From a bacterium (GTDB lineage: Bacteria > SM23-31 > JAUVVT01): a stretch of DNA of 12,500 nt. The stretch is from NCBI GenBank assembly GCA_030616165.1, contig JAUWXV010000097.1, forward strand, positions 1 to 12,500. The letters are read 5' to 3'. The notes beneath the pieces are model-generated. The model saw only the letters and a list, made by a program, of their open reading frames with translations, was not told the DNA's origin and made no database searches. A program made the position numbers and the translations under genes. Below, piece by piece: positions 1,907 to 12,250 of this stretch (within the stretch, counting starts at the first letter, position 1; every line of letters starts with the position of its first letter).

Positions 1907-1960
1907 TGGAATTATTGTTTGTCTTTTAAAAAAATCAATCGACCAAGTGCTATCTTAATT

Positions 1961-1966
1961 AGGAGA
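1961..1966 (+). promoter_or_regulatory. Ribosome binding site deciding the start at 1973
   Basis: AGGAGA lies six bases before the ATG at 1973. The frame can be extended to a TTG at 1919, but that codon has no such site, and the extension would put extra residues before a well-formed signal peptide. Confidence 0.75.
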
Positions 1967-1972
1967 AATATT

Positions 1973-3592
1973 ATGGACAACAAACCGAAAAAAAAATGTT
2001 CAAATCCATACCTCCAAAAAAAAAGAATAATACTCAGCCTACTTTTGTTTATCTTTAGTGTGACAATCTTTATAAATTCTTGTATCTCTCAGGAAACACA
2101 GATTCCTCGGTGGCGGCCTCACGATTTCAACTTCAAGAGCAAAAGCAATCATGAGAATCCCTTCACAGTTGATTTTTCTGCGGCAGTGAAAGGACCAGAT
2201 GGCACCGAGTTCACCACTCTTGGTTTTTATAATGGCAACAAGACGTGGGAAATACGAGTTGCACCAAATGTTGAAGGGCCGTGGGTGCTTGAAACACACT
2301 CTAATGACCCTCAACTCGATGGTAAAACTGCTTCATTCATGTGCATTCCGAATGATAATCCAAACATTCACGGCAAGCTCCTTGTGGACCCTGAACATCC
2401 ACATCACTTCATATTCGAGGATGGAAGTAGGTATTTTTTGATGGGATACGAATGTGACTGGCTGTGGGCTCTTGATATGGAAGAAAAAAACTTGCCGACA
2501 CTTAATCCTTTTCTTGACAGACTGGCATCACATGGGTTCAACCACATAATCCTCAACGCATATGCCCATGATACCAAATGGCGTAAAGGAAATACAGAGG
2601 ATGGTGATTATGGTCCCCCACCGATGTTTGCATGGGAAGGGAGTAATGAAAATCCTGTACATAATCGGTTTAACTTGTCATACTGGGAGCACTATGACCG
2701 CGTGATGAATGCGCTTTATCAACGCGGCATTATGGCTCATATTATGATCAAGGTATACAACAAATTTGTTAATTGGCCGAAAATAGGGAGTAAAGAAGAT
2801 GACCTTTATTTCAGATGGATTATAGCCCGTTATGCCGCATATCCAAATGCCGTCTGGGATTTTTCTAAAGAGGCACACAACGAAAAGGGAATTGATTATA
2901 AACTTAACCGTCTTCGTCTTATCCGAGAACATGACCCATACCATAATTTGATTACTGTTCACGATGACAATCAACTGTATGATAACGGAACCTATAGTGA
3001 TATACTTGATTTCCGCTCCGACCAACATCATAATAAATGGCACCCAAAAATATTAGAACAGCGCACGCAAAACATTTGGCCAGTGGTGAACGTTGAATTC
3101 GGTTATGAACATGGTCCTCAAGGTCTAAATGACAAAACATATAACGTAGTTCAGAGTCCAAAGGAGGTTTGCCGTCGAGGATGGGAAATTTGTTTGGCTG
3201 GTGGATACATCGCTTATTATTATACATATACAGCATGGGATATAATTCGTCCGGAAGACATACCAGAAGGATATGCATATTTCGAACACCTGCACGAATT
3301 CTTCGAAAACACTAACTATTGGTTAATGAAACCATCAGACGAACTGGTGAGTGAAGGGTACTGTATATCAAATCGTGGTAAAGAATATATCGTGTTTCTC
3401 AACAACGCAAAACCATTCACTCTCAAAATCGAAGGAGCAAATAGTCAACTCAAATCGGAATGGTATCATCCATTCACCGGTGAGAAAGCAGATGCCGGAA
3501 AAGTTACTAATGGCACAGTCAAGCTGACACCGCCGCAGGAGTGGGGCGATATTCCTATTGCTCTGCATGTATTCTCGGCACCAAAAGATTGA
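1973..3592 (+). CDS. Exported glycoside hydrolase with DUF5060 domain (lipoprotein-type)
   Basis: 539 residues from the ATG chosen by its AGGAGA site. A Lys-rich N-terminus, a hydrophobic stretch (about 19-35) and INSC ending at Cys37 suggest a signal peptidase II lipoprotein; Asn at -2 is unusual. Residues about 43-125 match the DUF5060 beta-sandwich (W-R-P-H-D-F start, NPF, GFYNGNKTWEIR, GPW). A TIM-barrel follows (about 135-450), similar to the DUF4038/GH140-like group. It has a likely acid/base Glu300 in WDFSKEAHNE, where relatives carry a NEP-type motif, and a likely nucleophile Glu375 in VNVEFGYE. The last about 85 residues form a beta domain like the putative collagen-binding domain at the end of such enzymes. 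The inferred role is cleaving a plant or microbial glycosidic bond outside the cytoplasm; the substrate cannot be read from sequence. Its G+C is visibly higher than the flanking genes, and two nine-A tracts lie in the first 55 bases. Confidence 0.85.
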   Translation: MDNKPKKKCSNPYLQKKRIILSLLLFIFSVTIFINSCISQETQIPRWRPHDFNFKSKSNHENPFTVDFSAAVKGPDGTEFTTLGFYNGNKTWEIRVAPNVEGPWVLETHSNDPQLDGKTASFMCIPNDNPNIHGKLLVDPEHPHHFIFEDGSRYFLMGYECDWLWALDMEEKNLPTLNPFLDRLASHGFNHIILNAYAHDTKWRKGNTEDGDYGPPPMFAWEGSNENPVHNRFNLSYWEHYDRVMNALYQRGIMAHIMIKVYNKFVNWPKIGSKEDDLYFRWIIARYAAYPNAVWDFSKEAHNEKGIDYKLNRLRLIREHDPYHNLITVHDDNQLYDNGTYSDILDFRSDQHHNKWHPKILEQRTQNIWPVVNVEFGYEHGPQGLNDKTYNVVQSPKEVCRRGWEICLAGGYIAYYYTYTAWDIIRPEDIPEGYAYFEHLHEFFENTNYWLMKPSDELVSEGYCISNRGKEYIVFLNNAKPFTLKIEGANSQLKSEWYHPFTGEKADAGKVTNGTVKLTPPQEWGDIPIALHVFSAPKD

Positions 3593-3798: not shown

Positions 3799-4830
3799 AT
3801 GAATAGAAAATTTAAGTTTGGTATAATAGGAATGGGTATGATCGGAGAACATCATGCCAAAAGTATAATAGAACTCGAAGAGGCAGAACTTGCTGCCATT
3901 CAATGTCGGACTATAAGTAAAGGAGAAAATCTATCAAAAAAATTAAATATTGAATATTATCACGATTATCTTGATATGATAAAGAGGGAAGATATCGATA
4001 TAATAGATATATGTTTACCATCAGGGATGCATATGGAGCCGGCAGTTTCAGCAGCAAAAGCGGGCAAACATGTTATCGTCGAAAAGCCCATCGATATTAC
4101 ACTTGAAAGGGCTGACAAAATAATAAATACTTGCAGAGAATGCGGAGTCAAACTTGCCGTTATATTTCAGAGTCGATTTGCTGAGCCCACCAGAAAATTA
4201 AAAGAAGCAGTGGTAAATGGAGAGTTGGGTAAACTAGTCTTGGGAGATGCATATATAAAATGGCATAGACCACAAGGCTACTACAATTCAACAGATTGGC
4301 GAGGAACTCTAAAGGGAGATGGAGGCGCCGCATTGATAAACCAATCTATACATACAATCGACCTTCTTCAGTGGATTATGGGTCCAGTGAAAAGAATTTA
4401 TGGAAAAACTGCCACACTAACACACGATATCGAAGGTGAAGATGTTGGAATTGCAGTTCTTGAATTTGAAAATGGTGCTTTGGGTGTAATCGAAGGCAGT
4501 ACATCGGTTTACCCCGGATTTCCACAGAGATTGGAGATTCACGGAGAAAAAGGCTCCGTAATACTTGAATCCGATGAAATAAAATATTGGACCATACAAG
4601 GAAAAGAGCAAACCCAGCCCGTAGAAGAAAAAAGTGATGGAACCGGGGCTTCTGACCCTATGGCTATAAGCCATATTAAACATAAACGACAGATTAAAGA
4701 TATGATTGACGCTATCAAAGAAGATAGAGAACCTTTTGTAAATGGTGACGAAGGAAGAAAAGCTCTTGAGATTGTAATAGGAATTTACACATCATCTAAA
4801 GAGGGAAAACCTGTTGATCTACAATTATAA
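3799..4830 (+). CDS. Gfo/Idh/MocA-family NAD(P)-dependent oxidoreductase
   Basis: 343 residues, the usual length for the family. The N-terminal Rossmann fold shows the dinucleotide loop G11-M-G13-M-I-G16 after a beta strand, then EKP at 95-97 (the conserved Lys96 that contacts cofactor and substrate). The C-terminal alpha/beta domain has GDGGAALINQSIHTIDLLQW, with His185 and Asp188 in the place of the family's catalytic His and its partner. There is no signal peptide, so it acts in the cytoplasm. The ribosome binding site AAAGGAGA (3787-3794) fixes the ATG. Relatives oxidise or isomerise sugars, inositols or UDP-sugars, and the exact substrate is open. Sitting 206 bases after an exported hydrolase, it plausibly oxidises a released sugar, but this is inference from position. 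UDP-N-acetylglucosamine 3-dehydrogenase-type and levoglucosan dehydrogenase-type enzymes are both possible relatives. Confidence 0.9.
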   Translation: MNRKFKFGIIGMGMIGEHHAKSIIELEEAELAAIQCRTISKGENLSKKLNIEYYHDYLDMIKREDIDIIDICLPSGMHMEPAVSAAKAGKHVIVEKPIDITLERADKIINTCRECGVKLAVIFQSRFAEPTRKLKEAVVNGELGKLVLGDAYIKWHRPQGYYNSTDWRGTLKGDGGAALINQSIHTIDLLQWIMGPVKRIYGKTATLTHDIEGEDVGIAVLEFENGALGVIEGSTSVYPGFPQRLEIHGEKGSVILESDEIKYWTIQGKEQTQPVEEKSDGTGASDPMAISHIKHKRQIKDMIDAIKEDREPFVNGDEGRKALEIVIGIYTSSKEGKPVDLQL

Positions 4831-4902
4831 CTTCAGCCTAAATTATATAATCTGAATAATTACCCGTAGCAAAAGAACATAATAGATTTTGAAATTATTT
4901 CA

Positions 4903-4935
4903 TGCTGGCGAAGGTGAAGAACACCTACGCCAGCA
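4903..4935 (+). repeat. 33-base palindromic dispersed repeat, copy 2
   Basis: TGCTGGCG pairs with CGCCAGCA, then across an A/A mismatch AGGTG pairs with CACCT around an AAGAA loop: 13 pairs in 33 bases. It is the inverted counterpart of 1676-1708. It lies between the oxidoreductase and glycosyltransferase genes, so it could also act as a hairpin separating their transcripts. A possible ATG at 4902 opening the glycosyltransferase frame is made by this repeat and is probably not a true start. Confidence 0.8.
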
Positions 4936-4975
4936 GCGACAGTTTAATACAACTTGTATCAAATAATATAATATC

Positions 4976-4981
4976 AGGAGA
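4976..4981 (+). promoter_or_regulatory. Ribosome binding site deciding the start at 4986
   Basis: AGGAGA lies four bases before the ATG at 4986. This favours 4986 over the in-frame ATG at 4902, which sits inside a dispersed palindrome and has no comparable site. Confidence 0.75.
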
Positions 4982-4985
4982 CATC

Positions 4986-6209
4986 ATGAAAGTGACTATG
5001 ACTATCCCCAGTTATTGGGGTCGAAAAAGGGGCGAAGGATGGAAAAAAGGAGACGTAATATATGACCATCCTACTCCTCTGGACGAAGAAGGTACATTAC
5101 GTCGAGTAATCGAAAGTACTTCCATGCTAAACAATAAGGATTTCCAACTGGTTATTATAGGAGCGGCTACCTCTGATGAAATAAGCAATGAAGTGGAGGC
5201 TAAAATTACTTCAATTATAAAAGAAACCTCGGCTGATGTGGAGGTATTATTTTTCTCTCACTCTCACCTCGCAAAAATTCATAATTATCTTGAAAAAAAC
5301 CACAAGGAAGATTTCGCCCAAGTTTTAAAATTGAAAGGTTATCCAGATATTCGCAACCTTTGTACGTTCCTGCCGCATCTTTTAGGGTCTGAGGTCGCTA
5401 TTCTGATTGATGATGACGAGATATTCGAAGATCCGCAGTTCATGGACAAGGCTTTAAAATATATAGGTAAGCATATTGCGGGGCAGATTGTATATGCAGT
5501 TACTGGTTATTGTGTAAACCCGGATAACGACTATCTAATTAATCAAGAAGTAAAACCATGGATGACTGCATGGAATAAAATTGATTGTATGAACCGTGCT
5601 TTAAAAGAGTTTATCGGTAAAGAACCGAGGCTTAAGAAAACTCCTTTTGCATTTGGAGGTATTATGATAATTCATCGTGATTTATTTACATATGTGCCGA
5701 ATGATCCAAATATCACCAGAGGAGAAGATATGGATTTTCTGATAAATGCAAAGATGTTTGGCTATACTTTTTTTCTTGATAACCTGCTGTCCATTAAGCA
5801 TAAAGCACCCCCTAAATTCCATCCTGTATGGAGTCAGTTAAGAGAGGATATTTATAGATTTGTTTTTGAGAAGGCTAAACTTGATACTCAAGAAGAAATG
5901 CCGAACCTTTTCACCGTGAGGGCTGAAGACCTTGACCCTTATCCAGGAGAATTCCTCAGGGATGATTTAGAAGAAAGAATATTTAAATCCAATCAAATGC
6001 TGGCATTGGATTATTTTCTAAAAGATGATAGAGAGGGCGTCAAGGAATGTATGAATAATATTTATCTTGCTAAATATAATGCTGTTCCAAGAAACAATCC
6101 TTTTAAAAATCTTTTAAAACTTCAAAACACCTGGAGGGATTTAATGGAGTATTTCTCAAACAGGAAGAATGCCAAACAACTCTGTGAACTTATTAAATTT
6201 CCCGGATAA
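4986..6209 (+). CDS. GT-A-type glycosyltransferase, donor and acceptor unknown
   Basis: 407 residues from the ATG with AGGAGA upstream. The start MKVTMTIPSYWGR is the first strand of a GT-A (family 2-like) nucleotide-sugar fold. IDDDEIFEDP around Asp142-Asp144 is the DxD-type motif for metal and sugar nucleotide. FAFGGIMIIHRDLF (221-234) and TRGEDMDFL (244-252, Glu247-Asp248) match the acceptor-side and catalytic regions of such enzymes, and His272 in SIKHKAP may be a metal ligand. The C-terminal about 120 residues are helical. There is no signal peptide or membrane helix, so it is cytosolic. The enzyme probably transfers a sugar from a nucleotide donor to a small molecule, lipid or polymer precursor. 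The RGED motif and lack of membrane anchor recall solute-forming transferases, but I cannot assign one. It is separated from the preceding gene by the palindromic repeat. Confidence 0.75.
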   Translation: MKVTMTIPSYWGRKRGEGWKKGDVIYDHPTPLDEEGTLRRVIESTSMLNNKDFQLVIIGAATSDEISNEVEAKITSIIKETSADVEVLFFSHSHLAKIHNYLEKNHKEDFAQVLKLKGYPDIRNLCTFLPHLLGSEVAILIDDDEIFEDPQFMDKALKYIGKHIAGQIVYAVTGYCVNPDNDYLINQEVKPWMTAWNKIDCMNRALKEFIGKEPRLKKTPFAFGGIMIIHRDLFTYVPNDPNITRGEDMDFLINAKMFGYTFFLDNLLSIKHKAPPKFHPVWSQLREDIYRFVFEKAKLDTQEEMPNLFTVRAEDLDPYPGEFLRDDLEERIFKSNQMLALDYFLKDDREGVKECMNNIYLAKYNAVPRNNPFKNLLKLQNTWRDLMEYFSNRKNAKQLCELIKFPG

Positions 6210-6260: not shown

Positions 6261-6289
6261 TTGACATTTATTTTTTATGTTATTAATAT
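6261..6289 (+). promoter_or_regulatory. Sigma70-type promoter for the permease fusion gene
   Basis: A consensus TTGACA (6261-6266) is followed after exactly 17 bases by TAATAT (6284-6289). Transcription would start near 6296, about 44 bases before the ATG at 6340. This is the best promoter match in the window and implies the fusion gene has its own transcript. Confidence 0.6.
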
Positions 6290-6339: not shown

Positions 6340-9300
6340 ATGCAAATTTTAGGAATAGCAAAATATGAATTTCTGCTTTTAAGACGTACTATACGCTTTA
6401 AATTAGCGATTCTGCTTTATGCTGTCGTAATCGTGTTATTGAATCTTTTAATTGCCCAAAGGGATCTAATCGGGCGAAGCCCTATGATTACAACATTGTC
6501 AGGTTTTTCCCCATACATATCCGCTTTTTTCTTTTCATTTATTTCTGCCTTTATTATACCATTTATAGTCGGAAACTTCCTCACAGACGACAAAAAAACA
6601 CGAATAAAAGAAGTCATCTACTCCAAACCCATCTCAAACTTAAAATATATAACCGGAAAATTCATCGGCTCAAATTTAGCGTTAATAACTATTTGTGTAA
6701 TTGTAATGTTCCTCTCTTCAGTTATTCAGATATCAATAGCCGTCAGACCCTACAAACTTTATCCATATATAACTTCGTTTCTCCTTATCTGTTTACCTAC
6801 AATCATTTTTATTACTGGATTTGTTTACGCTTTAAATTTCATAATTAAAAATCGCTGCCTGGTATTTTTGACAGTGGTGGGATTTTCAATTCTTTCAATA
6901 TTTATAATCGGTGAAAAAATATACAGACTTTTCGACTTTGCTGCAATAACCCTTCCTCTTAATCCGTCTGACATCATGGGCTACGGAAACATAGATCAAG
7001 AAATAATTCAGAGAATTGCATATACATTCCTCGGTCTGTCTTTAGTGTTTTTGTCTGCAGTATTTCCGTTCCGCCTTTCCGGAATTAGATATTTACGCAT
7101 TAAGATGCTCATCATTTCCACTATAACTGCTCTTATTCCCGTTTTTCTTTTTATGATTATTTTAAATGACTATTCTAAAGATAAACAAATAAGACTAAAT
7201 ACATTGCAAGCGCATGACAAATATTCAGAATTTCCTGTTATTGAAGTTCCTCATTATGATATGAATATAACACTTTTCCCTTCAAAACATCGAATGAAAG
7301 CGGATGTAAAGATGAATATATTATTTCCAGAAGATGAGAAAGTGAGTCAATTAGTTTTTGTTTTGAATACAGGATTAAAAATTAATAACATTACAGATGA
7401 AAATGGACTTGATTTACCATATAGCCGAGAATATTCCATTCTCGCTATAAATGTTGAAAAATTTAATAATCCCCCAAAACAGATAAATATCTCTTATGAA
7501 GGTTCTATAAACGAAAACAGTTTCTACCTGCTTGATGAAACAAAAGAGAAAATATATCTTGAATTTTCCAGTTTCAGAATTCCTCAGTTAAGATGGAATG
7601 TTGGAGAATGCTCATCATGGATTGGCACTGGTAATATATTTCTTATTCCTGAATCGAGGTGGTATCCTGTCCCAGGTGCTGACTATAGGGAGAGAGTAAA
7701 AATATCAAAACCTGTGAATTTTTCCACTGCCAATATTTCCGTTACTATCCCAGAAAAATACAAAGTTATAACTCAAGGTTCACTTATTAATACTAAAAAT
7801 GAAGATAATAGAATAATTTATACTTATAAAACTGACATCCCTGTCCCACAGTTCTCAATAAATGCAGGCGAATATATAGTAAAACATACTTGCGTTGACA
7901 GTATCGATTTTTATGCATATTACAGCCCACAACATAAACGGCATGCTGAATTTTTTGCAGATACAAGCAGCATCATTCAGGAAACTATTAAAGAACTTAA
8001 AGATTGGATAGAAACAGAAACTACGTTAAAATATCCATATCCCTCATTTTCTCTTGTTGAGGTTCCTATCGATTTCAGAACATATTTTGAAGCCTACGGA
8101 GATTTTAATCCGAAGGTTCAGCCGGGTATTGTTATGATTTCTGAAAACAATATTAACCTATTAGGTGTTCAATATGTCAATTATTTTAATGCCGATAAAA
8201 ACCGTGCAAGAAGAAGTGGAGGCGAATTAAATATATCAGATAGAAAGAAATTTTATTTAAAAAAATACCTGGCGTCAAATCTTGCTAATACGGGTATATT
8301 TGGTGGAAAAGATGGTAACGAAATGGATTGGGGATCATATTTTTTAAATATCATCACAGAATATTGGGGATTTCAAATAGGCTGTCAAGACAGGTTATCA
8401 AGTTTGATCAGGAAAGGCATTAACAGGCAAATACCTCAATTTCTAAATGCAGATGGTGATGAAATATTTCCTATTAGTATAAATAAGATTCTCAAAGCAA
8501 TTGAAACAAAACCGCTCATCGAATTCTCACCTAAAGAAGATGGAATACTTTATAATAGCGTTATGAAGTTAAAATGTCCTGCTATCATAAAATGCTTCTG
8601 TCAGGAAATTGGTGAAGAAAAATATAAAGAAATTATATTGAAATTTCTTGAAAAATATAGATATAAAAATCCCTCCTTTGAAGATTTTAAACGCTTTGCG
8701 GAAGAAATTTCCGGGAAGAACTTTGATAATTTTTTCCATCAATGGTTTGAGACAATAGACCTTCCGGGATATACCATTACAAAAGCTGAAAGCTACCCTT
8801 TGGAAACTAATAAAATGGAAAATAAGTATCAAATGATAGTAAGAGTCAGGAACTGGGAAGAAGGTCGTGGAAATATCAAAGTTCACTTCAAAACAGAAAA
8901 AGATGATATTTATAGAGATGTTCTCTTTGAATCTTATGAAGAAAAAGAAATAAGGGTTATTGTCCCTGATAAGCCGAGATATGTTGAGATAGACCCGATA
9001 TTCGCTAAAAACTGGACACGCCTTAGGTTCACCTACAAAGTTCCGGAAAAACCTGTGAAAGTCATTCCATTCGAAGGCATAAAAACGGTCAAATCTGAAA
9101 AATCAAAGGAAATCATCGTAGATGATCAGGATGCAGGCTTCTCCATTGTCAGTCTGAAAAAAGAACGAATGAGAATTTTCGGAAAGAAAAAAGATAAATC
9201 AAATATTACAGAAGAATTTAATGGCATTTCTGAGACACTTATGGCTACCCTTTCCCGAATCGGTAATTGGACAAGGTTTTATTATGGGCAATCTTACGGT

Positions 9301-9648
9301 AAATACAGAAACAGCCTTGTCGTAAAAAATAAAGGCAAAGGTAGTTCCTATGCATCATGGAAGACTGTAATCCCTGAAGACAACATTTATGACACATATA
9401 TCTTTATCAATAATTATACCAGAAACTACCGGCCTTTTGGAGAAAATATAGGAAGCATGTTTTACATCATTGTAGTTTATAATGACGGCAAAAGCAATGT
9501 TGATCTAAAGACATCTCGAAATATGGACGGGTGGCACTATCTCGGTGAATTTGAATATAAAAAAGGAGATACAGCTGAAATAAGACTATCTGATAAATGC
9601 GATGGAGTAGTGATTGCGGATGCAGTCAAGTGGGTTCCGGCAGATTAG
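6340..9648 (+). CDS. ABC-2-like permease fused to an inactive-looking M1 peptidase domain and a golvesin-like domain
   Basis: 1102 residues in three parts. Residues 1-275 carry about seven membrane helices (21-39, 58-79, 111-131, 143-168, 174-191, 227-244, 255-275) after a short basic start, as in ABC-2 permeases. With the N-terminus inside, the rest would face outward. Residues about 300-515 read as an M1-type beta-saddle and 520-805 as its catalytic region, ending FFHQWFETIDLPGY like M1 relatives. No HExxH occurs: the aligned place (about 640-656, LKKYLASNLANTGIFGG) has neither zinc histidine, and the GxMEN motif is also missing. Residues about 925-1100 resemble a golvesin/xanthan-lyase C-terminal domain (GWHYLGEFEYKKGD, VIADAVKWVP). 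Permease-M1 fusions are known; in them an ATPase gene is usually adjacent, but none is here. The ribosome binding site is weak. Likely role: an outward-facing binding or assembly factor rather than a peptidase. Confidence 0.8.
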   Translation: MQILGIAKYEFLLLRRTIRFKLAILLYAVVIVLLNLLIAQRDLIGRSPMITTLSGFSPYISAFFFSFISAFIIPFIVGNFLTDDKKTRIKEVIYSKPISNLKYITGKFIGSNLALITICVIVMFLSSVIQISIAVRPYKLYPYITSFLLICLPTIIFITGFVYALNFIIKNRCLVFLTVVGFSILSIFIIGEKIYRLFDFAAITLPLNPSDIMGYGNIDQEIIQRIAYTFLGLSLVFLSAVFPFRLSGIRYLRIKMLIISTITALIPVFLFMIILNDYSKDKQIRLNTLQAHDKYSEFPVIEVPHYDMNITLFPSKHRMKADVKMNILFPEDEKVSQLVFVLNTGLKINNITDENGLDLPYSREYSILAINVEKFNNPPKQINISYEGSINENSFYLLDETKEKIYLEFSSFRIPQLRWNVGECSSWIGTGNIFLIPESRWYPVPGADYRERVKISKPVNFSTANISVTIPEKYKVITQGSLINTKNEDNRIIYTYKTDIPVPQFSINAGEYIVKHTCVDSIDFYAYYSPQHKRHAEFFADTSSIIQETIKELKDWIETETTLKYPYPSFSLVEVPIDFRTYFEAYGDFNPKVQPGIVMISENNINLLGVQYVNYFNADKNRARRSGGELNISDRKKFYLKKYLASNLANTGIFGGKDGNEMDWGSYFLNIITEYWGFQIGCQDRLSSLIRKGINRQIPQFLNADGDEIFPISINKILKAIETKPLIEFSPKEDGILYNSVMKLKCPAIIKCFCQEIGEEKYKEIILKFLEKYRYKNPSFEDFKRFAEEISGKNFDNFFHQWFETIDLPGYTITKAESYPLETNKMENKYQMIVRVRNWEEGRGNIKVHFKTEKDDIYRDVLFESYEEKEIRVIVPDKPRYVEIDPIFAKNWTRLRFTYKVPEKPVKVIPFEGIKTVKSEKSKEIIVDDQDAGFSIVSLKKERMRIFGKKKDKSNITEEFNGISETLMATLSRIGNWTRFYYGQSYGKYRNSLVVKNKGKGSSYASWKTVIPEDNIYDTYIFINNYTRNYRPFGENIGSMFYIIVVYNDGKSNVDLKTSRNMDGWHYLGEFEYKKGDTAEIRLSDKCDGVVIADAVKWVPAD

Positions 9649-9753: not shown

Positions 9754-10005
9754 ATGAACAAAGCACAATTAATCTCAGAAGTAGCAAAGAAAGCAAATTT
9801 AAGTAAGAAAGACGCAGCAAATGCTGTAAATGCTACTATTGATGCCATTAAGAAAAATGTTAAAAAGGGAGTAACACTTGTTGGTTTCGGAACTTTTAAA
9901 GTTATAAGAAGAAAAGCAAGGACTGGTAGGAATCCTCAGACAGGTGAAAAGATAAGAATAAAAGCAAAAAATGTTGTGAAGTTTAAACCGGGGAAAGGAT
10001 TATAA
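9754..10005 (+). CDS. HU/IHF-family nucleoid DNA-binding protein
   Basis: 83 residues, slightly short of the usual 90. All family landmarks are present: an N-terminal MNKAQLISEVAKKANLSKKD helix pair, GFGTF at 44-48, and the beta-arm motif RTGRNPQTGE with the DNA-intercalating Pro61. The C-terminus KNVVKFKPGKGL ends early but keeps the last conserved helix start. It acts as a dimer that bends and compacts DNA. AGGAG at 9741-9745, eight bases before the ATG, supports the start. It stands alone between two unrelated large genes. The upstream gap (9649-9753) has only a poor promoter match, CTGATA near 9680 with T/A-rich sequence after it. HU versus a one-chain IHF-like role cannot be separated from sequence alone. 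Confidence 0.95.
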   Translation: MNKAQLISEVAKKANLSKKDAANAVNATIDAIKKNVKKGVTLVGFGTFKVIRRKARTGRNPQTGEKIRIKAKNVVKFKPGKGL

Positions 10006-10138: not shown

Positions 10139-12250
10139 ATGTTTATTCATTTATATCTAAAAAATCAAAAAATTAGTTTAAAAAAACTTTTTCTTCTTGC
10201 GATTCTTCCATTATTTTTTAATTATTCTGAAGGAGCAGCAGAAACTCCTGAAATTAGCACAATACTTTATGGAGCGTCCTATTATCATGAATACATGCCT
10301 TATGAGAGGCTTGAAAAAGATATTCAGTTGATGAAAAAAGCAGGTATCAATTTTGTTCGATTAGGAGAATCGACCTGGAGCAGTTGGGAACCAAGCGAAG
10401 GAGAGTTTAAGTTTGCCTGGATGGAAAGGATTTTAGACCATCTGAATCAAAATGGTATTAAGGTGATTTTGGGTACTCCAACCTATTCTATTCCACCCTG
10501 GCTTTACAGAAAACATCCTGAAATTTTGGTCACCCGGCTGGGCGGTGAAAAAAGCTTTTACGGTCCCAGGCAGAATATGGACATCACTCACCCCACATAT
10601 CTTTTTTATGCAGAGCGGATTATACGGAAGATTATTTACCATTTTAGAGACCATCCTGCTATTATCGGTTACCAGATTGACAATGAAACCAGTTCTTATG
10701 GAACTGCAGGAAGGAATGTTTATTTCGGATTTGTGGATTATCTTAAGAAAAAATTCAAATCAACCGCTGCATTGAACAAAATTTGGGGATTTACTTACTG
10801 GGGGCAACTATTGAACGATTGGGATGAACTTCCACCAAGAGACGGTATTCTTAATCCTGGTTACAAACTCGAATGGGAGCGCTACCAACAGAAAATCGTT
10901 ACTGATTTTCTTGCCTGGCAAGCCTCTATTGTGAACGAATACAAACGACCCGGTCAATTTATTACGCATAATTTCGTCGGTGGAGTCCGCACCAATATTG
11001 ACGAGTTTGAAATTGCCAAACACTTGGATATCACCAGTGTTAATCCCTATCATCCTGTTCAGGATGAACTCGATGGTGAGCGGATAGCCCTCTCAGGTGA
11101 CCTCTGCCGTTCACTAAAGCAAAATAACTACCTCGTAACAGAAACCAATGCCCAAACAATTGGTTGGGATTCAAAGAATCAATTCCCTCCTTATGATGGT
11201 CAACTTCGCTTGAATGTTTACAGTCATCTGTCCAGCGGAGCTAATTTAGTAGCATATTGGCACTGGCACTCACTCCATTATGGGCAGGAAACCTACTGGA
11301 AAGGAGTGCTTTCTCACGACCTTGAACCCAATAGGGTATATCAGGAAGTAAGCCGTATTGCTCATGAATTGAAACAGGTAGGACCTCAGTTGGTAAACCT
11401 GAAGAAAAACAATAAAGTTGCAATACTCTATAGTGTAGATTCTTACCAAGGTATCCAGTTTATGCCTTTTCACGACAATGTCGATTATATGACCATTCTG
11501 CATCAGTTTTACAAAACTCTATACCGTCTGAATGTTGGTGTGGATTTTGTCTTTCCCCAAAGTTCAAGTTTTTCCAACTATGACATAATTGTCGTACCGC
11601 CGCTTTATATTGCAAGCGATGCGTTACTGGAGAAATTAGTAGATTTTGTCAAAGAAGGAGGACACCTTCTCCTTTCTTTCAAAAGCGGATTTTGTAATGA
11701 ATACTCAACAGTGCGTTGGACCAAAATGCCCGCTTCTTTGCGTGAAGCATGTGGATTTTACTATCAGGAGTTTTCCAATTTAAAAAAGGAATTACCGCTG
11801 AGAGGGGATCCCTACAAGGTAGAAGAAGAAAATAGGGTCTCAGTATGGGCAGAATTACTCATTCCCGAAAATGCAACTCCCCTGGCTTTTTATGAGCACC
11901 CGTTCTTTGTTAAATATCCTGCTCTTACCCGCAATAAATACGGCAAAGGAACTGTGACCTATCAGGGAACAGTGCTTTCGGATAAACTTCAGGAAAAAGT
12001 TATGTCGGAAATTCTGGACTTAGCCGGCTTGACAGGACCAGACCAAAAACTCACACCACCAGTAAGGGTAAAACATGGAGTGAACAATGCTGGGAAAAAC
12101 ATTCACTATTATTTGAATTATTCCGGCCAAACTCAGACTTTTACCTATACATATGCAAACGGCACTGATCTTCTTACAGATAATCCAGTTAAGAAATCTC
12201 AAGCCGTAACTCTGAATGCATGGGACCTTGTAATTATCGAAGAAGAGTAA
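10139..12250 (+). CDS. Exported GH42 family glycoside hydrolase (beta-galactosidase-like)
   Basis: 703 residues. A basic start and hydrophobic stretch (about 15-30) ending near EGAAET form a signal peptide, so the enzyme is exported, unlike many cytoplasmic GH42 enzymes. The TIM-barrel (about 40-420) opens with LYGASYYHEYMP and GINFVRLGESTWSSWEP. Acid/base Glu183 is preceded by Asn182 in YQIDNET; nucleophile Glu335 lies in LVTETNAQT. Both match the clan A pattern of GH42. Residues about 425-635 are the Rossmann-like middle domain used for trimer contacts (IIVVPPLYI, EGGHLLLS), followed by a small beta domain to the end. The zinc-cluster cysteines known in some GH42 members are absent (GPRQNMD replaces the Cys-containing stretch). 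AGAGGGA at 10122-10128 precedes the ATG. The expected reaction is release of beta-linked galactose, or of another sugar such as arabinose or fucose, from oligosaccharides outside the cytoplasm. G+C is higher than in the two neighbours. Confidence 0.92.
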   Translation: MFIHLYLKNQKISLKKLFLLAILPLFFNYSEGAAETPEISTILYGASYYHEYMPYERLEKDIQLMKKAGINFVRLGESTWSSWEPSEGEFKFAWMERILDHLNQNGIKVILGTPTYSIPPWLYRKHPEILVTRLGGEKSFYGPRQNMDITHPTYLFYAERIIRKIIYHFRDHPAIIGYQIDNETSSYGTAGRNVYFGFVDYLKKKFKSTAALNKIWGFTYWGQLLNDWDELPPRDGILNPGYKLEWERYQQKIVTDFLAWQASIVNEYKRPGQFITHNFVGGVRTNIDEFEIAKHLDITSVNPYHPVQDELDGERIALSGDLCRSLKQNNYLVTETNAQTIGWDSKNQFPPYDGQLRLNVYSHLSSGANLVAYWHWHSLHYGQETYWKGVLSHDLEPNRVYQEVSRIAHELKQVGPQLVNLKKNNKVAILYSVDSYQGIQFMPFHDNVDYMTILHQFYKTLYRLNVGVDFVFPQSSSFSNYDIIVVPPLYIASDALLEKLVDFVKEGGHLLLSFKSGFCNEYSTVRWTKMPASLREACGFYYQEFSNLKKELPLRGDPYKVEEENRVSVWAELLIPENATPLAFYEHPFFVKYPALTRNKYGKGTVTYQGTVLSDKLQEKVMSEILDLAGLTGPDQKLTPPVRVKHGVNNAGKNIHYYLNYSGQTQTFTYTYANGTDLLTDNPVKKSQAVTLNAWDLVIIEEE

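Follow-up and report, generated by a model that had tools for sequence, protein, structure and literature searches.

The window, as we term the whole 12,500-nucleotide stretch of bacterial DNA analyzed here, contains an open reading frame (6340-9648, +) that starts with ATG and encodes a fusion protein of 1102 amino acids, joining an ABC-2 permease half, a zinc-less M1-like region and a golvesin domain in a single chain, and present here as an orphan copy. The permease half (residues 1-285; 6340-7194, +), recognizable by Pfam, by hydropathy and by its match to the active permease-M1 fusions, has seven hydrophobic segments and is followed by an M1-like N-terminal beta-saddle together with the start of the catalytic domain (residues 300-569; 7237-8046, +), which hhalign aligned to M1 enzymes and an HMM to the active fusions. 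Next comes a remodelled catalytic core (residues 570-742; 8047-8565, +) with neither an HExxH motif nor the second glutamate ligand and of variable length across the family, and then the C-terminal helical part of the M1 catalytic domain (residues 743-810; 8566-8769, +; Pfam Peptidase_M1 and hhalign), which contains FFHQWFETIDLPGY. An M1-type beta-sandwich (residues 811-905; 8770-9054, +; hhalign) and a Golvesin_C domain (residues 921-1100; 9100-9639, +) complete the protein. The AT-rich gap upstream of the gene holds a candidate promoter of its own (TTGACA-17-TAATAT; 6261-6289, +); the count of promoter-like sites around these positions is not above that of shuffled sequence, and we treat the candidate as a lead only.

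The window looks sugar-oriented, based on a gene for a GH42 beta-galactosidase with an N-terminal hydrophobic stretch (10139-12250, +; 307.9 bits) and a Gfo/Idh gene at 3799-4830. A gene for an HU-type DNA-binding protein (9754-10005, +) lies directly 3' of the orphan fusion. The remaining neighbors are a putative glycoside hydrolase with a lipoprotein-like start (1919-3592, +; DUF5060, apiosidase-like, Collagen_bind_2), whose true start probably lies downstream of the listed TTG, an unassigned 435-amino-acid protein whose sole hint of identity is a faint glycosyltransferase-2 match (4902-6209, +; E 0.066), and a 511-amino-acid open frame that runs off the window end and has no Pfam match at E 0.001 (3-1535, -).

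All three parts of the fusion named in the original prediction were recovered by Pfam and profile alignment, and its landmark motifs, FSLVEVP at residues 570-576 and FFHQWFETIDLPGY from residue 798, are present where it had placed them. In the window protein, Golvesin_C (PF25275) passes the Pfam cut-off (46.5 vs. 31.6 bits; residues 971-1098), and the golvesin part also gives a weak match (E 0.008) to the C-terminal part of the Paenibacillus xanthan lyase 6f2p: there, the domain belongs to a secreted polysaccharide lyase, whereas in the window protein it is tethered to an inner-membrane permease, with sugar binding as its putative role. A single-sequence scan places ABC2_membrane_3 (residues 54-219) and Peptidase_M1 (residues 735-802, the end of the profile) just below their Pfam thresholds. 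The permease half gives a weak match to GldF-type ABC-2 permeases (TIGR03518) that falls far below the cut-off (16.4 vs. 288.5 bits), and its assignment as GldF was rejected. Hydropathy and positive-inside counting predict seven transmembrane segments with the K/R-rich loops (residues 1-19, 79-112 and 245-256) all on one side of the membrane, the loop at 79-112 being cytoplasmic, which would put the M1-like arm on the periplasmic side, in agreement with the outer-face location first proposed for it. AlphaFold runs on the full protein and on residues 520-905, each with a two-row alignment (L017 as the extra row), yielded pLDDT values of 34 and 45, too low for the models to be of use; the beta-sandwich was the best-modelled part of the second run (block pLDDT 47-78).

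Because single-sequence evidence for an M1 domain is confined to residues 735-802, family profiles were built. With a 28-row family profile, residues ~303-886 of the window protein align to secreted HExxH-bearing M1 enzymes (hhalign probability 99.9, E 3.5e-35). The permease and M1 parts together (residues 2-888) align to the HExxH-bearing permease-M1 fusions at E 2.6e-44; column-shuffled controls gave E-values of 0.05-0.84, and shuffled M1 controls 0.33 or worse. The M1 beta-saddle, catalytic domain and beta-sandwich are matched end to end, making the region M1 by fold and homology, and the M1-like character originally proposed for residues 300-805 is upheld by profile alignment.

A motif scan likewise bore out that HExxH occurs nowhere in the window protein, and neither HExxH nor a relaxed version of it (H[DEQNS]xxH, HExxxH or HxxEH) was detected in any of 42 family members, the window protein included, that span at least four phylum-level groups. 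The motif was also missing from the further loci screened beyond this set. When run on most active fusions, the family M1 profile matches at profile positions ~1-270 and 443-593, which correspond to residues 300-570 and 743-892 of the window protein, so that only the zinc core between them (~residues 570-742) is left unmatched. The proposal that a particular stretch had replaced the zinc site held as to the loss of the site but not as to the exact stretch: its placement differs between alignments, and the position of the zinc helix is filled, with low confidence, by either LNIITEYWG or ISDRKKF/LASNLANTG. Similarly, the GxMEN motif is absent as predicted, but active HExxH-bearing permease-M1 fusions are also without it, and its absence is thus not diagnostic of catalytic loss. 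The M1-like domain has lost its zinc ligands and is probably catalytically dead.

The source genome encodes four family copies: the window copy (contig C265) and, by identity to it, those on C24 (70%), C202 (66%) and C228 (31-37%), of which the C228 copy is clustered with pump genes and the other three are orphans, 66-70% identical. The family occurs in five of the six genomes searched from the source phylum, counting a partial copy in genome G001. In other phyla, 49 of 82 genomes (phylum of G195) reach E 1e-15 or better against the full-length profile, a minority of them through M1-only matches, 31 of 64 (phylum of G149) match a permease/saddle profile, and one of 68 (phylum of G144) has a match. 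Every full-length member scanned for the golvesin domain has it, and the viral contigs searched contained no relative of the fusion. In a quick tree of 47 rows, with long branches at its root, the active fusions and the zinc-less family fall apart, and the orphans occupy two positions, one comprising the window, C24, C202 and G001 copies (support 100) and the other four copies from genome G471 (support 99), which points to two independent escapes from the cluster. G471, which belongs to another phylum, contains these four divergent orphan fusions (L160-L163) in addition to a clustered copy (L167), constituting an independent expansion.

The cluster itself has a fixed order on one strand: ABC ATPase, fusion, TolC-like outer-membrane efflux protein (OEP), HlyD-like adaptor and RND pump. 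All five genes occur in this order and on the same strand at 26 loci (22 + 4) from three phylum-level groups, usually with a second RND gene 3' of them, and five further loci have the arrangement ATPase-fusion-adaptor-RND with no recognized OEP. A cognate ATPase gene adjoins the fusion genes of nearly all clustered relatives; in the source genome, the C228 copy is flanked by an ABC ATPase gene and by genes for an outer-membrane efflux protein, an HlyD-type adaptor and an AcrB-type RND pump. Because the architecture is both widespread and fixed in a pump cluster, its primary context is a transporter complex rather than a free-standing docking protein, and the window copy, like its close paralogues, is a free-standing derivative of the clustered fusion. 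The closest relative of the cluster ATPase in the source genome is the C228 ATPase itself; the next, on contig C190, is 44% identical to it and is situated beside its own ABC-2-like membrane protein of 248 amino acids. This C190 locus (L153; 4251-9733, -) gives the genome another ABC+RND arrangement, which consists of the ATPase, the 248-amino-acid membrane protein, which has no M1 or golvesin part, and an RND gene. Within the open-access literature, we found no description of zinc-less fusions with a golvesin domain, nor of the gene cluster that combines ABC and RND parts, a weak sign of novelty.

Among described systems, the nearest is the permease-M1 fusion of Myxococcus (TCDB 3.A.1.145.1), which has a zinc-dependent peptidase domain and has been suggested to export some amino acid, amino acid derivative or metabolic product of amino acids (PMC3924187); the Myxococcus xanthus protein Q1D520 (TCDB 3.A.1.145) has 1200 amino acids and 13 TMS (PMC3924187). 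Fusions of this type resemble the window protein in combining an ABC-2 permease and then an M1 fold in one chain, with an end-to-end profile match, and, like nearly all clustered relatives of the window type, they lie beside an ABC ATPase gene. Unlike the window type, however, the fusions examined have two permease halves, an HExxH motif and no golvesin match, whereas the window type has one half (seven segments rather than ~13 TM), which matches both halves of the active fusions, ends in a golvesin domain and is devoid of zinc ligands, and its relatives occur in an OEP-MFP-RND cluster. The window fusion is a variant of the TCDB 3.A.1.145 type that has neither the zinc-dependent peptidase nor the ~13 TM of that type. 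TAF2 is an inactive M1 relative that, along with yeast Tma108, works by binding rather than by cutting, as the window type would; both are eukaryotic and soluble, whereas the window family is bacterial and membrane-bound. Tma108, which binds nascent chains and is treated in a review of pseudopeptidases, is listed as having kept its HExxH motif (PMC11266112), in contrast to the window family, where every member tested is without it.

The reading that we consider reasonably likely makes the window protein an orphan paralogue of an exporter subunit that is itself conserved, its clustered form being a homodimeric ABC-2 exporter with a non-cutting cargo arm serving an RND/TolC system, and we infer the dimer, the hand-over of cargo, the binding of a glycan and the partnership in trans in the following form. 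The clustered fusion would be the membrane subunit of the exporter: because each chain has one permease half where active fusions have two, two copies would pair in the inner membrane, driven by ATPases from the upstream gene, and would project two periplasmic arms, each made up of the zinc-less M1 fold, the beta-sandwich and the golvesin domain. These arms would not cut; instead, the old peptidase groove may bind or gate cargo, and the golvesin domain is probably there for a glycan, either in the cargo or in the envelope. From the arm, the cargo would pass on to the products of the neighboring genes, namely the RND pump, the HlyD-like adaptor and the TolC-like channel. In the window lineage, copying of the gene to sites outside the cluster would have given rise to the three diverged orphans of the source genome, which most likely act in trans with the clustered ATPase and pump set, or with another cargo. 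A more elaborate version, which we regard as speculative and rather doubtful, is a hitherto undescribed dual-energy exporter in which an ATP-driven ABC-2 unit uses its dead M1/golvesin arm to feed its cargo, either a glycoconjugate or a glycopeptide, to an RND/TolC channel driven by protons, the arm having been copied out at least twice to serve as a stand-alone cargo receptor.

Two features of this reading of the clustered form can be questioned, namely the coupling of its ABC and RND parts and the inactivity of its arm. The two parts could be independent exporters that share only regulation and the outer channel, with the fusion acting together with the ATPase alone. The presence of a single OEP/adaptor set per cluster and the completeness of the RND pumps are compatible with such independence, but gene order is constant across three phylum-level groups despite deep divergence, which would exceed what shared regulation usually keeps, and we view independence as possible but not the likelier arrangement. 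Far less probable is that the M1-like domain is still an enzyme, through a rebuilt metal site or some other catalytic chemistry in the remodelled core. Although this core (residues 570-742) is a replacement and not a deletion, and both E574 and E602 are family-invariant, these two and H532 are the only fully invariant histidine, cysteine, aspartate or glutamate residues between residues 520 and 815, and all three look structural, since their counterparts can be read in the alignment of the active fusions, whose zinc sits elsewhere. The length and sequence of the core, moreover, vary widely among relatives. A search of the sequence for an alternative zinc site returned no conserved ligand set, making a hidden metal site in the core unlikely.

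Turning to the orphans, no ATPase, OEP, MFP or RND gene neighbors the window, C24 or C202 copies, so that the window copy is only a putative transporter; the partial G001 locus has no pump genes alongside either, and no conserved neighbor genes of orphans were seen. When the window, C24, C202 and G001 copies are compared pairwise, dN/dS comes to 0.11-0.19 overall and to 0.12-0.21 for the permease segment, some segment values being unreliable due to saturation of synonymous sites, and the orphans are maintained genes under purifying selection. An orphan probably either depends on an ATPase encoded elsewhere or has taken on a new role as a binding protein: we infer use of the C228 ATPase in trans as the most economical proposal, with the repurposed binding protein as its main rival. 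Under that rival, the orphans would transport nothing, the permease being a mere anchor and the pseudo-M1/golvesin arm a periplasmic or surface protein for binding, docking or assembly, the role suggested in the original prediction. The absence of pump genes at all four loci and the fact that orphaning occurred twice speak for it, as does the pattern of retention, in that orphans keep 0.83-1.00 of the M1 and golvesin signature positions while the permease falls to 0.61-0.88. This lower range is that of the G471 orphans, which stand out more clearly, against 0.92-1.00 in their clustered sisters; the window group keeps 0.75 of the cluster-conserved positions in the permease, 0.92 in M1 and 0.96 in golvesin. 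However, divergent clustered copies used as leave-clade-out controls show comparable permease drift (retention 0.54-0.80), selection on the permease segment equals that on the rest of the protein, and the invariant residues of the permease have mostly been retained in the window lineage, G106 and K107 in the cytoplasmic loop among them. An orphan without any transport function strikes us as a less likely, if serious, alternative to partnership with the clustered ATPase.

Permease-M1 fusions have been on record for more than 10 years, and we found no established function for them in the literature. In the clade described here, all tested members are without the peptidase site, yet the fold, the additional golvesin domain and the cluster of ABC and RND genes have been retained. 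We take this as an argument that the M1 arm of an exporter can serve to bind instead of to cut. The cluster also makes it possible to test whether an ATP-driven pump is linked to a proton-driven one, and in the free-standing copies, the fusion has been uncoupled from its pump by nature. Interrupted fusion genes were also encountered, as a result of either sequencing error or decay: at L023 (2186-5438, -), the frame is split in contig C9 of genome G005, and at L137 (contig C134 of genome G452), the gene is broken by one TAA.
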